Positions 57,055 through 63,372 of a stretch of DNA of 64,000 nucleotides are shown piece after piece (the stretch's first letter is position 1; each line of letters starts with the position of its first letter). A program made the translations under genes and the position numbers. This DNA is from Actinomyces sp. oral taxon 448 str. F0400 (GTDB taxonomy: Bacteria; Actinomycetota; Actinomycetes; Actinomycetales; Actinomycetaceae): positions 2,076,330 through 2,140,329 of the forward strand of contig NZ_GL985606.1 of assembly GCF_000220835.1 (NCBI RefSeq), given 5' to 3'. A model generated the notes under the pieces. The model saw only the letters and a program-made list of their open reading frames with translations. It ran no database searches and had not been told where the DNA came from.

Positions 57055-58371
57055 TCAGGGGCGCACGTGACCGGCGCCCTCGACGATCCACTTGGTCGTT
57101 GTCAGAGCGGCCGGCCCCATGGGCCCGCGGGCGTGAAGCTTCTGGGTGGAGATACCCAGTTCCGCCCCCAGACCCAGCTGACCGCCGTCGGTGAAGCGCG
57201 TCGAGGCGTTGACCATGACGACGGCGGAGTCGACCGCCTCCGTGAAACGATTCATAGCTGTGATGTCCCGGGTGAGAATCGCCTCGGTGTGCCCGGTCGA
57301 CCACCGGGAGATGTGATCGACGGCTTCCTCCAGATCCGCCACGACCCGCACGGCCAGGTCAAGGCTGCCGTACTCGGTGGCCCAGTCCTCGTCGGTGGCC
57401 GCGACCAGCAGCTCCCCGCGACCGGCCCGCCCCGCTGAATCACGCAGCACGGTCTCGGCGGCGGCGTCCACGTGGAGGACGACGCCCTCATCCCACAGCG
57501 CCGCCGCGACGGCGGGCAGAAGGCGTTCGGCGATGTCGCAGTGCACCAGCAGGGTCTCGGCGGCGTTGCACACGCCCACACGCTGAGTCTTGGCGTTGAC
57601 GACGAGCGGCACGGCCGCCTCGAGGTCGGCCGAGGCGTCGGCGTAGACGTGGCAGTTGCCCGACCCGGTCTCGATGACGGGCACCGCCGATTCCTCCACG
57701 ACCGTCTCGATGAGTCCGGCGCCACCGCGCGGGACGAGCACATCGATCAAGCCCCGAGCCCGCATGAGCGCCGTGGCGCCCGCCCTTCCGGCGGCGTCCA
57801 CACTCGTCACCAGATCCGCGGGCAGACCGACGCTCTCCAGGGCGTCCCGCAGGATGCCGACAAGAGTGGCGTTGGTCCGCTGCGCGGCGCTTCCGCCGCG
57901 CAGCACGACCGCATTGCCGGACTTCAGGGCCAGAGCGGCCACGTCGACGGTGACGTTGGGGCGGGCCTCGTAGATCATGCCGATCACGCCCACGGGCACG
58001 CGCACACGGCGCACCTTCAACCCGTTGGGGAGAGTCCGGCCGTCGACGATCTGGCCGACCGGATCGGGCAGGCCGGCGACCTCGCGCAGGGAGGCGGCGA
58101 CGGCGGCGACGCGCCCGACGGTGAGGGTCAATCGGTCGACCAGCCCCTCCCTCATGCCCGCCCGACGAGCGCGCTCCACGTCGACGGAGTTGGCGGCCAG
58201 AATCGTCTGCGTGCCGGCCAGCAGCCCGTCGGCCATGGCGTGCAGCCCGGCGTCCTTGAGCTCGCGGCGCACGCCTGAGGCGGCGCGCTGCGCCAGACGG
58301 GCGGAGCGCGCCGTGCGGGTGACCGACTCGACCGCGTCCTGCTGGGGCGAGGGGCTGATGGAGACGTCCAT
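57055..58371 (-). CDS. proA: Gamma-glutamyl phosphate reductase
   Basis: A 438-residue ALDH-fold enzyme of proline synthesis that reduces gamma-glutamyl phosphate to the semialdehyde. Segments include [93 protein letters not shown] with the catalytic Cys, and [30 protein letters not shown]. The ATG at 58371 follows TATGGT-6 bases, the leaderless-like pattern. In many actinobacteria obg, proB and proA are adjacent; here a two-gene cassette in the opposite direction separates proB from proA. Confidence 0.95.
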
Positions 58372-58688: not shown

Positions 58689-58694
58689 TATAAT
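58689..58694 (+). promoter_or_regulatory. Perfect -10 box TATAAT before the ATPase cassette
   Basis: TATAAT (58689-58694) lies 40 bases before the ATPase ATG. A matching -35 is not obvious. Such an AT-rich box stands out in this GC-rich window and suggests an independently transcribed cassette. Confidence 0.5.
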
Positions 58695-58734
58695 TCTCCC
58701 GGTTAATGGTCGGGCAGGGGAGCAGGTACCGTCG

Positions 58735-59892
58735 ATGAGGATCACGCACCTGGAGGCGAGCAACTGGCGCAACTTCAAAAGCGTGGAGTTCGACGTCGGG
58801 GAGCGTCTGTTCATCGTCGGCCCGAATGCGGCCGGCAAGTCGAACCTGCTCGATATCTTCCGCTTCCTGTCGGATATCGCCGCATCGGGCGGTGGGCTCT
58901 CATCGGCCATCGAACGCCGCGGCGGGCTCAAGAAAGTTCGGAGCCTGTTCGCACGGAACTACGCCGGGGGACGCCTCATCATCGATGTCACCCTGCAGGA
59001 GGCGGAGACCACGTGGAGGTACCAGCTCGCTGTACGGGGCGAGAAGGGCGGACGAAACCGTCCGATCGTGGACACGGAGCTCGTGGAACGCAACGGCCGG
59101 ACCATTCTGTCGCGGCCGGACTCCCAGGACGATGCGGATCCTGAGAGGCTCACGCAGACTCACCTGGAGCAGATCGCGGCAAACCATGAGTTCCGTCCCA
59201 TCGCCGCGCACCTGTCGAAGGTTCAGTACTTCCATCTCGTCCCCCAGATCATCCGTGATCCTGCACGAACCACCCCCACTCATCACGATCCTTACGGCAG
59301 CGATTTCATCACCCAGATGAACAGCACGCCCATGATCACACGCAACGCCTGGCTCAGACGCATGCAGGAGGCGCTCCAGGCCGCCGTTCCGGGCTTCGAG
59401 TCGCTGGCCATCGAGACGGACCCCGCCGGCAAGCCGCACCTGATCGCCGGATACAGGAACTGGCGCGCGACGCCATCCAAGCAGAACGAGTCGGACTTCT
59501 CCGACGGAACACTGCGTCTCATTGGTCTGCTGTGGTCGATCATCAAGGCGCCGGCGAGCCCGGGCGTCCTCCTTCTGGAAGAGCCCGAGCTCTCCCTCAA
59601 CAATGCGATCGTGAAGATCCTGCCCTCAGTCCTGGCCCAGGTGCGCAGGTCCTCCGATCTTCAAATCGTGCTGTCCACCCACGCCCCCGAGATCCTCAAC
59701 GACGAGGGCATCAGCCCTGACGAGGTCCTCGTCCTGCGGGTCACGGACGACGGGTCGACGGCCGATCTCCTCTCGAGCCTGCCCGAAGTCGCGGACCTCG
59801 AGCTCGGGCTCGCCACCTCCGACGTCGTCGACGGACTCATCGCCCCGGACGACCTCACCGGGCTGATGACCGCCGCCCGGAGCCGTCGATGA
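58735..59892 (+). CDS. AAA/ABC-type ATPase of a two-gene cassette (OLD/AbiL/AriA-like)
   Basis: A 385-residue ATPase. Walker A is GPNAAGKSN (about residues 29-37) right after LEASNWRNFKSVEF, the start of RecF/SMC-type ABC ATPases. The middle (about residues 110-240) is a variable insert. The ABC signature region is SDGTLRLIGLLW (about residue 256), Walker B with catalytic Glu is VLLLEEPELSL (about residue 280), and the H-switch is LSTHAPEILNDEG (about residue 312). This matches the AAA_21/AAA_15-type ATPases of defence pairs such as PARIS AriA and abortive-infection systems. It overlaps the next gene by 4 bases (ATGA). Confidence 0.82.
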   Translation: MRITHLEASNWRNFKSVEFDVGERLFIVGPNAAGKSNLLDIFRFLSDIAASGGGLSSAIERRGGLKKVRSLFARNYAGGRLIIDVTLQEAETTWRYQLAVRGEKGGRNRPIVDTELVERNGRTILSRPDSQDDADPERLTQTHLEQIAANHEFRPIAAHLSKVQYFHLVPQIIRDPARTTPTHHDPYGSDFITQMNSTPMITRNAWLRRMQEALQAAVPGFESLAIETDPAGKPHLIAGYRNWRATPSKQNESDFSDGTLRLIGLLWSIIKAPASPGVLLLEEPELSLNNAIVKILPSVLAQVRRSSDLQIVLSTHAPEILNDEGISPDEVLVLRVTDDGSTADLLSSLPEVADLELGLATSDVVDGLIAPDDLTGLMTAARSRR

Positions 59893-60503
59893 GCCCGAGC
59901 CCTTATGTCTCGGTCGCGGTGGAAGGGCAATCCGATACGGGCATGGTCGAATCCTTACTCAATTACGTTGGGCTCGCACTCAGCCGCCCTTGCGTGGTCA
60001 AACGCGGGGCGTCCAATCTCGACAAGATGATTCCGAAGCTCAGCCGCGCCCCGATCGAGGCGCCATGGATCGTCTTCCGAGACTCCGATAATCGGTGTCC
60101 AGTCGAGTTGAAGAAGGAACTCATCGGTTCCGATCGCGGCAACGGATTCGAGCTGCGCCTGGCCTGCTCCATGACTGAGGCCTGGATTCTGGCAGACGCA
60201 AACGGGTTCGCCAAGTTCTTCAGAGTCAGCAGGAAGAAGCTCCCCGCAGCACCCGATGATCTTCAGCACGCCAAAAATGAGCTTCTCCGTCTGTGCCAGC
60301 ATTCCAGGTCCACCACCATCCAGAAAGAAATGGTGCGCGCTGACGGGAGCACCGGACCACTCTACGTCAATCGAGTCATCAATTTCTGCCGCGGGCACTG
60401 GGACGTGGCCAGAGCGTGCGAGCGCAGCCCCAGCCTCGCTCGCGCGGTGGCACGGTTGACGACCATGCGCGCCAAACTCGTCTCGACCCCGTCCGCGTCC
60501 TGA
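59889..60503 (+). CDS. DUF4276-type (TOPRIM-like) partner of the ATPase
   Basis: A 204-residue protein. It begins VSVAVEGQSDTGMVESLL (E12), a TOPRIM-like first motif, followed by the acidic pair in IVFRDSDNRC (D65, D67) and SMTEAWILAD (E97). The layout fits DUF4276/TOPRIM-like putative nucleases that accompany AAA ATPases in defence loci. No transmembrane segment. Its ATG overlaps the ATPase stop, so both are coupled. It reaches to within 40 bases of the convergent proB. The DUF4276 assignment is by likeness, not by a search. Confidence 0.7.
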   Translation: MSPSPYVSVAVEGQSDTGMVESLLNYVGLALSRPCVVKRGASNLDKMIPKLSRAPIEAPWIVFRDSDNRCPVELKKELIGSDRGNGFELRLACSMTEAWILADANGFAKFFRVSRKKLPAAPDDLQHAKNELLRLCQHSRSTTIQKEMVRADGSTGPLYVNRVINFCRGHWDVARACERSPSLARAVARLTTMRAKLVSTPSAS

Positions 60504-60541: not shown

Positions 60542-61693
60542 TCAGATGCGCTCGCCCGCCGTACGCGGCAACTCGGCGAGGTCGTCGCGGTGAACCACCG
60601 GGGCGACATGGTCGAGCGGATCGGCGGAACCGTCCCGGCGCGCCCGCAGGTCCTCTTCGAGCTCGCCCGATGCGTAACGGCAGATGCCGCGGGCCATGAC
60701 GCCCGCGGGGCCCACGAGCTCGACGACCGCCCCGGACTCGAAGTCCCCGTTCACGCCCGTCACGCCCGGCAGGAGAAGGGACTTCTTGCCCACTGTGATC
60801 GCCCGCTGCGCACCGGCGTCGATCACGATGCGTCCTTCGGGAACGGAGGCGTGCGCCATCCACAGCCGACGGCTGGGACGGTGCGGGCCGGTCGGGGCGA
60901 ACCAGGTGCCCAGGTCGACGGGCACTTCCCGCTCCCCCAGCAGACGGGGAGCGTCGTCGGCCGATGCGATGACGGCGGCCGTTCCGGAGGCGCAGGCGAT
61001 CGTCGCCGCCTGAAGCTTGGTGCGCATGCCGCCCGTGCCGAGTGTGCTCGCACGCCCGGTGACGTCAACGTCGATGAGCTCGTCCGGCGCGCCGACGTAG
61101 CGCACGGGCTCGGCCCCGGGAGTGCCCGGTCTGGCCGTCCACACGCCGTCGACGTCGGTGAGCAGCACGAGCACATCAGCCGTCACCAGGTGGGCCGCCA
61201 GCGCAGCCAGCCGGTCGTTGTCGCCGAGGTTGAACTCGGCGGTCGCCACGGCGTCGTTCTCGTTGACGATAGGGACCGCTCCCATCGACAGCAGGGCGCC
61301 GAAGGTGGCCCGCACGGTCCGGTAGTGGCTGCGCACCGCCACATCCTGGGCGGTGAGCAGGACCTGGGCCGTCACCACCCCGTAGGCGCTCATCGCAGTC
61401 TGCCAGCGCGAGACCAGGTGTCCCTGACCGACCGAGGCGGCCGCCTGCAGCAGGCGCAGCTCGCCCGGGCGCCCGGTCATGCCCAGGGGGATCAGCCCTG
61501 CGGCCACAGCACCCGAGGACACGAGAACCACGTCGTGACCGCGTCGTCGCAGCCCGGCGACGAGGCCCGCGATGATATCGATGCGGTTGAGGTCCAGTCC
61601 CCCGTCCGAACGGGTCAGAGAGGACGAGCCGACCTTGAGCACCACGCGAGCGTTGTCGGCCAGACTCGTGGGCCGGAGCCCGGCCGTGCTCAT
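60542..61693 (-). CDS. proB: Glutamate 5-kinase
   Basis: A 383-residue kinase of proline synthesis that phosphorylates glutamate. The kinase part contains [75 protein letters not shown] (ND-x-V), LLTDVDGVW and [15 protein letters not shown]. The C-terminal 110 residues form a PUA domain. ATG 61693 overlaps the obg stop by 4 bases (ATGA), so proB is made with obg. Confidence 0.96.
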
Positions 61694-63270
61694 GCGTCAT
61701 CCCGGCCGAGCCGGTCGGCGACGTCGGTCCACAAACCTTCGGCGGCCTCGTCACGCAGCTCCTGGCGTGCAGCCTCCTTGGCGTCCATGAGCGCATGGTA
61801 CTGAGCTCGGCGCTCGGCGCTGGTGCGACGGTGAGGTCTGTCGACCCGCGGGTCGGTGCCTCGCGCCCCGAGAAGCTCGGCGCCGGCCGACACGGTCGGC
61901 TCCCATGTAAACATCACCCCGCCGTCGACTGACCCGATGAGGACGGAGTCCCCGGCGTGCGCACCGGCGGCGACCAGTTCGTCCTCGACCCCGCCGGCCG
62001 CCAGACGATCAGCCAGGTAACCGACGGCCTCATCATTGGCGAAGTCTGTCTGACGCACCCAGCGCTCGGGCCCGTCCCCGCGAACCTGGTAGACATCCCC
62101 CTCGCCGGGGTGATGAATGAGATGCACCGTCGCCGCTGCCCTCCTGCCCCGGCCGGCGACGGCGGCCGGACGGATGACAGGTCGGGAGGCCTCGACGACC
62201 GCCCGCGAGGCCCGGGCGTCCACCCGCGCTCGTTCCACGAGTTCGGCCAGAGCGAAGGACAGGGTCCGCAGACCGGTGTGGGCGACGGCCGAGACCTCGA
62301 AGACGGGCAGAGCGCGGGAGGCGATGTCATCCCTCACGAAATCGGCGAGTTCGGCGGCCTCGGCGACGTCGATCTTGTTCAGCACGACGACACGGGGCCG
62401 GTCCATGAGCGGTGCGCGTCCCGTACGGGCCGGGTCGGATTCCTCCTCGCTCAGACGAGCGGCGTAAGCGGCGAGCTCGGCCTCAATGGCGTCCAAATCG
62501 CTCAGCGGGTCACGGCCGGACTCGAGTGTGGCGCAGTCCAGGACGTGAACGATGACGGCGCAGCGTTCAACATGGCGCAGGAACTCCAGCCCCAGTCCCC
62601 TGCCCCGGCTGGCGCCTGGAATAAGGCCGGGGACGTCGGCGATCGTGTAACGGATCTCACCGGCCTCGACGACGCCCACATTCGGCACCAGAGTGGTGAA
62701 GGGGTAGTCGGCGATCTTGGGCCGAGCCGCGCTCATGGCCGCAATGAGGGAGGACTTGCCGGCGCTGGGATAGCCGACCAGCGCCACGTCGGCGATGGTC
62801 TTGAGCTCCACAACGACGTCGCGCACCTGCCCCGGCTCGCCCAGCAGGTGGAACCCGGGAGCTCGGCGCCGGGAGGACGCCAAGGAGAAGTTGCCGCGTC
62901 CGCCGGTGCCTCCCTCGGCCACGACGACGCTGGCCCCCTCACCGACGAGATCCGCGACGATACCGCCTTCGGCGTCCTTGACGATGGTGCCCTCGGGAAC
63001 CGGCAGCACGAGGTCCGCGCCGTCCGTGCCGCGACGCCAACTCCCCATACCGGGCGTGCCGTTGCCGGCGGCGCGGTGAGGCGAGCGATGGTAGGTCAGC
63101 AAAGTGGTGGCCCGCGGGTCGACGACGAGCACGACGCTGCCGCCGTGCCCGCCGTCGCCGCCGTCGGGTCCGGCCAGAGGCTTGAACTTCTCGCGGTGGA
63201 TCGATGTGCATCCGTCGCCGCCGCGGCCGCCGCTCACGTGGAGAACCACTCGGTCGATGAAACTGGGCAT
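61690..63270 (-). CDS. obg: GTPase Obg/CgtA
   Basis: A 526-residue GTPase needed for 50S assembly and stress response. The Obg fold is Gly-rich with [59 protein letters not shown]; the G domain has [22 protein letters not shown] (switch I), [14 protein letters not shown]; and a C-terminal OCT domain lies at about residues 360-430. A further C-terminal tail is usual in actinobacteria. ATG 63270 has AGGAGG 5 bases upstream. It is preceded by a strong hairpin after rpmA. Confidence 0.96.
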
Positions 63271-63372
63271 GGGTCCTCCTGGATGATGTGGGCGCAGTGG
63301 CGGAAGACGTCCCGCATGCATAGCGAGCGCGGCCGGCGGATCGGCAGAACCGACGGTCAGCGGAATGCGCAT

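Follow-up and report, generated by a model that had tools for sequence, protein, structure and literature searches.

Organization of the cassette

The stretch of DNA analysed here (64 kb, referred to as the window) carries two open reading frames between proA and proB. Both frames are intact, overlap by 4 bases (ATGA) and are read on the strand opposite to the two flanking genes, exactly as the first-pass annotation had placed them. The locus comprises the following features:

57055–58371, minus strand: proA, flank of the exchange site; Pfam Aldedh 2e-18, orthologue in 48 of 49 genus genomes
58689–58694, plus strand: TATAAT, possible −10 element of the cassette, with no recognisable −35
58735–59892, plus strand: gene A (HEC-01A), ABC/SMC-type ATPase, proposed sensor and regulator; 385 aa, ATG start
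59889–60503, plus strand: gene B (HEC-01B), TOPRIM-fold putative nuclease, proposed effector; 204 aa, ATG start
60542–61693, minus strand: proB, flank of the exchange site; AA_kinase 1e-38 and PUA 2e-13, strong orthologue in 48 of 49 genus genomes
61690–63372, minus strand: open reading frame reading as obg

The start originally noted for the cassette, 58689, is the position of the TATAAT hexamer, whereas gene A itself begins at 58735. The hexamer lies 40 bases upstream of the A start codon and occurs only once in the window, both strands counted. The idea that the cassette owns a TATAAT box was thus borne out for the motif but not for a full promoter, as a strict two-hexamer scan listed none for the cassette and no −35 partner was found. 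Nevertheless, similar hexamers (TAGGAT, TAGAAT and TCGGAT) are located 39–41 nt before the ATG in the related loci of genomes G042, G052 and G047, which makes TATAAT a plausible candidate for the cassette promoter.

The gene pair matches HEC-01

Searches against the PADLOC profiles (PADLOC-DB 2.0.0) matched both proteins over nearly their full length to HEC-01, the Hma-embedded candidate 01. Protein A matched HEC-01A PDLC04180 with E 2e-161 (residues 1–378 of 385 against profile positions 1–379 of 382) and B matched HEC-01B PDLC04197 with E 1e-73 (residues 7–193 of 204). In agreement with the definition of the system, which asks for HEC-01B adjoining HEC-01A, the two genes are directly joined by their overlap. 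The next-best families for A were other HEC-01 subtypes, AriA, AbiLi and Mad3, which have the AAA domain in common (Pfam AAA_21, E 7e-33 for A). All 43 B homologues scanned matched HEC-01B, and among them no match to a TOPRIM defence family of another name was obtained at E ≤ 1e-5. Judged by its sequences, the cassette is a complete HEC-01 pair and hence an already catalogued candidate defence system. The suggestion that the pairing might be an uncharacterised variant was consequently abandoned, since PADLOC holds entries for both HEC-01A and HEC-01B. HEC-01 comprises many profile subtypes; the window copy is of the PDLC04180/PDLC04197 subtype and, rather than being embedded in an Hma locus, is found by itself between proB and proA.

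The term "Hma-embedded candidates" is used in an excerpt of PMC12988326, which reports tests of several HECs and in that portion of its text does not name HEC-01 among them. The source preprint is Payne et al. 2024 (doi 10.1101/2024.01.29.577857), as cited in PMC11411939. HEC-01 also figures among the systems detected in Desulfovibrio piger (PMC12724379). To judge from the papers searched, the name HEC-01 comes from bioinformatics alone, and no experimental test of it was found in them.

Protein B had initially been labelled DUF4276. This name proved marginal, as B reached PF14103 with E 0.08 and 13.6 bits only, compared to a gathering score of 30.2, and also remained below the cutoff of Pfam OLD-like_TOPRIM. 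However, 22 of the 43 homologues reached DUF4276 at E ≤ 0.01, which argues that B is related to this family by sequence though outside its cutoff. A literature search on DUF4276 turned up nothing, and sequence searches for solved relatives of B gave spurious matches only.

Predicted folds and conserved residues of A and B

The ATPase motifs reported for A, namely Walker A (G29..GKS), the SDG signature (256–258), Walker B (EEPE, 282–285) and the H-switch (H316), were all conserved in 45 homologues. The AF2 model (pLDDT 91.5) resembles SMC and Rad50 heads as well as PtuA of Septu and retrons with Z about 21; as modelled, A is an SMC/Rad50-type ABC ATPase. Two more distant AAA_21-type ATPase frames with 23–33% identity to A are present elsewhere in the window's own genome, G000 (G000:C1:408486-409469 and 573099-574088).

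For B, an AF2 model with a mean pLDDT of 95.7 was obtained. The best solved match in VIA was the class 2 OLD TOPRIM domain 6nk8 (Z 9.0, 3.7 Å over 159 residues), followed by chains of the PARIS complex (Z 8.1 for 8ux9_A, and 7.9), 2p62, a Pyrococcus protein whose function is unknown (Z 7.8), Thermus OLD and then a retron complex. OLD TOPRIM domains and PARIS chains make up ranks 1–6 at Z 7.9–9.0, and although Z near 8 is modest by VIA's own note, this group stands out because clearly unrelated folds begin only at Z about 5. The model therefore supports a predicted OLD/AriB-like TOPRIM fold for B, and the proposed combination of an ATPase with a TOPRIM-fold partner, which a B protein of another fold would have contradicted, was upheld by the matches to OLD TOPRIM and the PARIS nuclease AriB. 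The acidic motifs that had been pointed out (E12, D65/D67 and E97) were likewise retained: E12, D65, C70, E97 and D103 are invariant in 43 of 43 homologues and D67 is an aspartate in 40 of 43. As B residue 5 lies opposite residue 19 of 8ux9_A, E12 would fall near AriB E26, a position read from the aligned ranges and not from a residue-level alignment. Exchange of AriB E26 for alanine abolishes tRNA cleavage, that is, AriB activity (PMC12409363).

Comparison with related ATPase/TOPRIM systems

Like PARIS, the cassette encodes the ABC ATPase and the TOPRIM protein in separate genes. Besides the fold similarity of B to 8ux9_A, A matches the AriA profile (1e-28) via the common AAA_21 domain. The best match of A is by far HEC-01A, however, and B showed no match to any AriB or AriAB model at E ≤ 10, nor did any of the 43 homologues at 1e-5. 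Moreover, B comprises 204 aa compared to about 305 resolved residues in AriB. Defined by the AriA and AriB sequence families together, PARIS does not include the pair.

The ATPase N-terminus of the cassette is shared with OLD and Gabija GajA (the A profile reaches GajA with E 5e-14), and OLD provides the closest TOPRIM fold to B. In contrast to class 1 and class 2 OLD proteins and GajA, in which both domains form one chain, ATPase and TOPRIM are here encoded separately, and the genes adjoining the pair are proA and proB rather than a GajB helicase. The pair accordingly falls outside OLD and Gabija, if these are recognised by a single chain and an adjoining GajB. MADS and AbiL are also among the systems in which an ABC ATPase is combined with a TOPRIM domain (PMC12409363). 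A partially matches the Mad3 and AbiLi profiles, but among the matches listed for B there is no MADS or AbiL model, and no other MADS gene adjoins the pair. The kinship with OLD, AbiL and PARIS AriA proposed at first was thus sustained by fold for OLD and PARIS, whereas by sequence B matches no PARIS, AbiL, Gabija or MADS model.

Occupancy of the proB-proA gap in Actinomyces

The genus, Actinomyces in the GTDB sense, was represented by 48 genomes with both proA and proB. Gap states were read directly for 41 gaps and judged for the rest by gap length and a search for A homologues. In these genomes a close A homologue is confined to the proB-proA gap. A and B are both intact in eight (G000, G001, G006, G020, G042, G050, G052 and G054), A is intact with B deleted or truncated in four (G016, G018, G022 and G047), and A is frameshifted, truncated or a remnant in six (G005, G015, G040, G044, G055 and G062), while 30 of the 48 gaps showed no trace of the cassette. 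The same pair is therefore not found at this spot in all relatives, in line with an insertion between proB and proA; the word "inserted", however, hides that the site is used recurrently across the genus and that many of the copies in it are decayed.

Ten of the 18 occupied loci in the genus are damaged, as would be expected if the cassette were a non-functional remnant passing through the locus. We consider this highly improbable for the window copy, in which both frames are intact and all catalytic residues are kept, and whose dN/dS values to relatives are 0.13–0.25 for A and 0.19–0.24 for B. Across the related loci overall, dN/dS was 0.05–0.30 for A and 0.15–0.30 for B. Values of 0.3 or less for both genes indicate purifying selection at the sequence level and speak for real genes.

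The damage is unevenly distributed: B is broken with A intact in four genomes, A is broken with B readable in one. This direction would fit a costly B, but with p = 0.05 against gene length, the more frequent breaking of B before A is only suggestive. Such an order of loss, together with the designation of AriA as "antitoxin" in PDB entries, might be taken for a toxin-antitoxin-like addiction or stress module, in which A neutralises B and persistence is due to addiction rather than phage defence. We regard such a module as unlikely in view of the many clean losses at the proB-proA site and of one particular locus. In G040 (L025, oriented 1152–2024) an in-frame deletion joins A residues 1–116 to B from about residue 9. 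The resulting single frame of 290 aa keeps Walker A and D65, D67 and E97 of B but has no Walker B, so that a B frame persists here without the rest of the ATPase, which would be forbidden for a strict antidote if that B is active. Conversely, the apparently intact A without B in some genomes counts against the reading as a defence pair.

Exchange of the cassette between species

At least 10 gains or losses of the cassette are required to explain its distribution on the proB-proA tree. The A protein of the window groups with that of G052 (support 97/97), whereas its proB-proA sequences group with G042, G044 and G047 (support 100/100). In AU tests, whose p values are optimistic because the tested groups were picked after the trees were seen, the proB-proA data rejected G000 with G052 (p 2.5e-4) and the A data rejected G000 with G042 and G047 (p 4.5e-5); a second, weaker conflict concerned G001 and G050 (p 0.008 and 0.036) and rose to p 0.08 when G022 was added to the second group. 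A transfer of the G054 A gene was unsupported (AU p 0.47). In each of the 12 genomes with intact A, the GC content of the cassette is lower than that of the two flanking genes, proB and proA. In the window it amounts to 0.64 for A and 0.61 for B compared to 0.72 for both flanks, and in the A. oris group to 0.49–0.53 compared to 0.71–0.74. Based on the tree conflict and the lower GC content, copies of the cassette appear to have been exchanged between species at the proB-proA site. Inspection of the junctions of 41 loci by eye revealed neither an integrase nor a target duplication, and a mobile element with these features of its own was rejected for this reason. The movement is thus most simply explained by homologous recombination, with the conserved flanking genes proB and proA supplying the homology.

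Distribution across phyla and association with defence genes

A wider survey with one genome scanned per species yielded 48 loci from Actinobacteria, Proteobacteria, Planctomycetes, Bacteroidota, Cyanobacteria, Acidobacteria and others; relatives with named records include Actinomyces gerencseriae, A. oris and Actinomyces sp. oral taxon 170. With few exceptions among the homologues fetched, A lies directly 5′ of B on the same strand, with a spacing of mostly −11 to +13 and −4 as the commonest value. In the loci fetched from outside the genus, the pair was never next to proA or proB. Homologues of the pair were not found in the phage, plasmid and viral contig collections, which speaks against an origin from such elements and also counts against a defence role, as defence cassettes often travel there.

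For 18 homologues located elsewhere than at the proB-proA site, the genes out to a distance of about 4 kb were set against those of 18 control stretches lying tens of kilobases off on the same contigs. DpdF, DruM/methylase, PsyrT, RmrA and SoFic were among the matches listed near the homologues, MzaA, reverse transcriptase, IetA, LmuB and PycC were found in the controls, and mad3/mad8 matches occurred in both sets. No clear enrichment of defence genes was detected in this comparison, a weak one given its crude gene calls and its tally by family instead of locus, and membership in a defence island was therefore not adopted.

Many copies of the wider family sit among ordinary metabolic genes. 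This environment, the absence from phage and plasmid records and the closeness of the A fold to SMC and Rad50 heads would also suit a housekeeping chromosomal pair for repair or nucleic-acid processing, consisting of a RecF/Rad50-like ATPase and a TOPRIM nuclease; an archaeal OLD-family ATPase serves the cell cycle and not defence (PMC12796447). Such a function is nevertheless quite unlikely for a pair that is missing from 30 of 48 Actinomyces genomes, decayed in others and rare in the phylum (B in 4 of 395 other genomes), and for which the A tree conflicts with that of proB-proA.

Proposed function of HEC-01

Taken together, HEC-01 is probably a PARIS/OLD-like sensor-effector system of two genes that resembles an OLD protein divided in two. 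The modelled folds, the pairing, the conserved catalytic-type residues and the exchange at the site are supported, and we infer an anti-phage role from the filing as HEC-01, the fold kinship to OLD and PARIS, and the pattern of gain and loss. The observation that started this work was hence confirmed and its interpretation partly supported. A PARIS-like mechanism appears most likely for A and B: A would bind ATP, oligomerise and keep B inactive, until A is acted on by a phage product and B is thereby released or activated. B would then cut nucleic acid, either tRNA (the PARIS target) or DNA (the OLD target), presumably by a two-metal site formed by E12, D65, D67 and E97, and this cleavage would halt growth before phage is made. 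More doubtful is the combined proposal that the proB-proA gap is an Actinomyces-specific, integrase-free swap site and that B represents an infection-triggered, tRNA-cutting TOPRIM RNase of a family apart from AriB.

While the pair itself was known from the catalogue, the present analysis adds support for the TOPRIM fold, an account of what happened to the cassette at a single Actinomyces site, and a set of naturally occurring loci that are intact, half-lost or empty. As a lone compact pair at one defined site in a culturable genus, it offers material to test whether HEC-01 defends, which half senses and which kills. It also illustrates clearly how a candidate defence system can be kept at a fixed position in the chromosome and apparently be exchanged between species there with no visible mobile element.

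Other contents of the proB-proA gap

Apart from the cassette, the gap contents include a glycosyl hydrolase (GH) family 20 protein, a DUF6199 protein, a sugar-type ABC transporter set, a DDE transposase and proteins lacking a Pfam match. The gap was also considered as a hotspot with varied defence cargo, but none of the four other gap contents tested matched PADLOC. In G062 (L018) and G018 (L020) the transporter set, an ATPase and a periplasmic binding protein with a LacI-like regulator, separates proB from the HEC-01 ATPase, and these loci lack B. The related genomes G004, G059, G046 and G041 (L019, L021, L024 and L026) carry about 1 kb with a lipoprotein-like open reading frame and no HEC-01; the frame of L026, the one tested of the four, had no Pfam or PADLOC match. 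G015 (L011, 1120–13261) contains a 12 kb insert with the DDE transposase, several short frames that matched nothing in Pfam and, at its proA end, a truncated HEC-01 ATPase, and in G039 (L028) the gap is filled by the GH family 20 gene. Finally, short direct repeats (GCCGAGATCGGTAGA-like units) were observed just after the proB stop codon in the related genomes G053 and G051 (L029 and L030).
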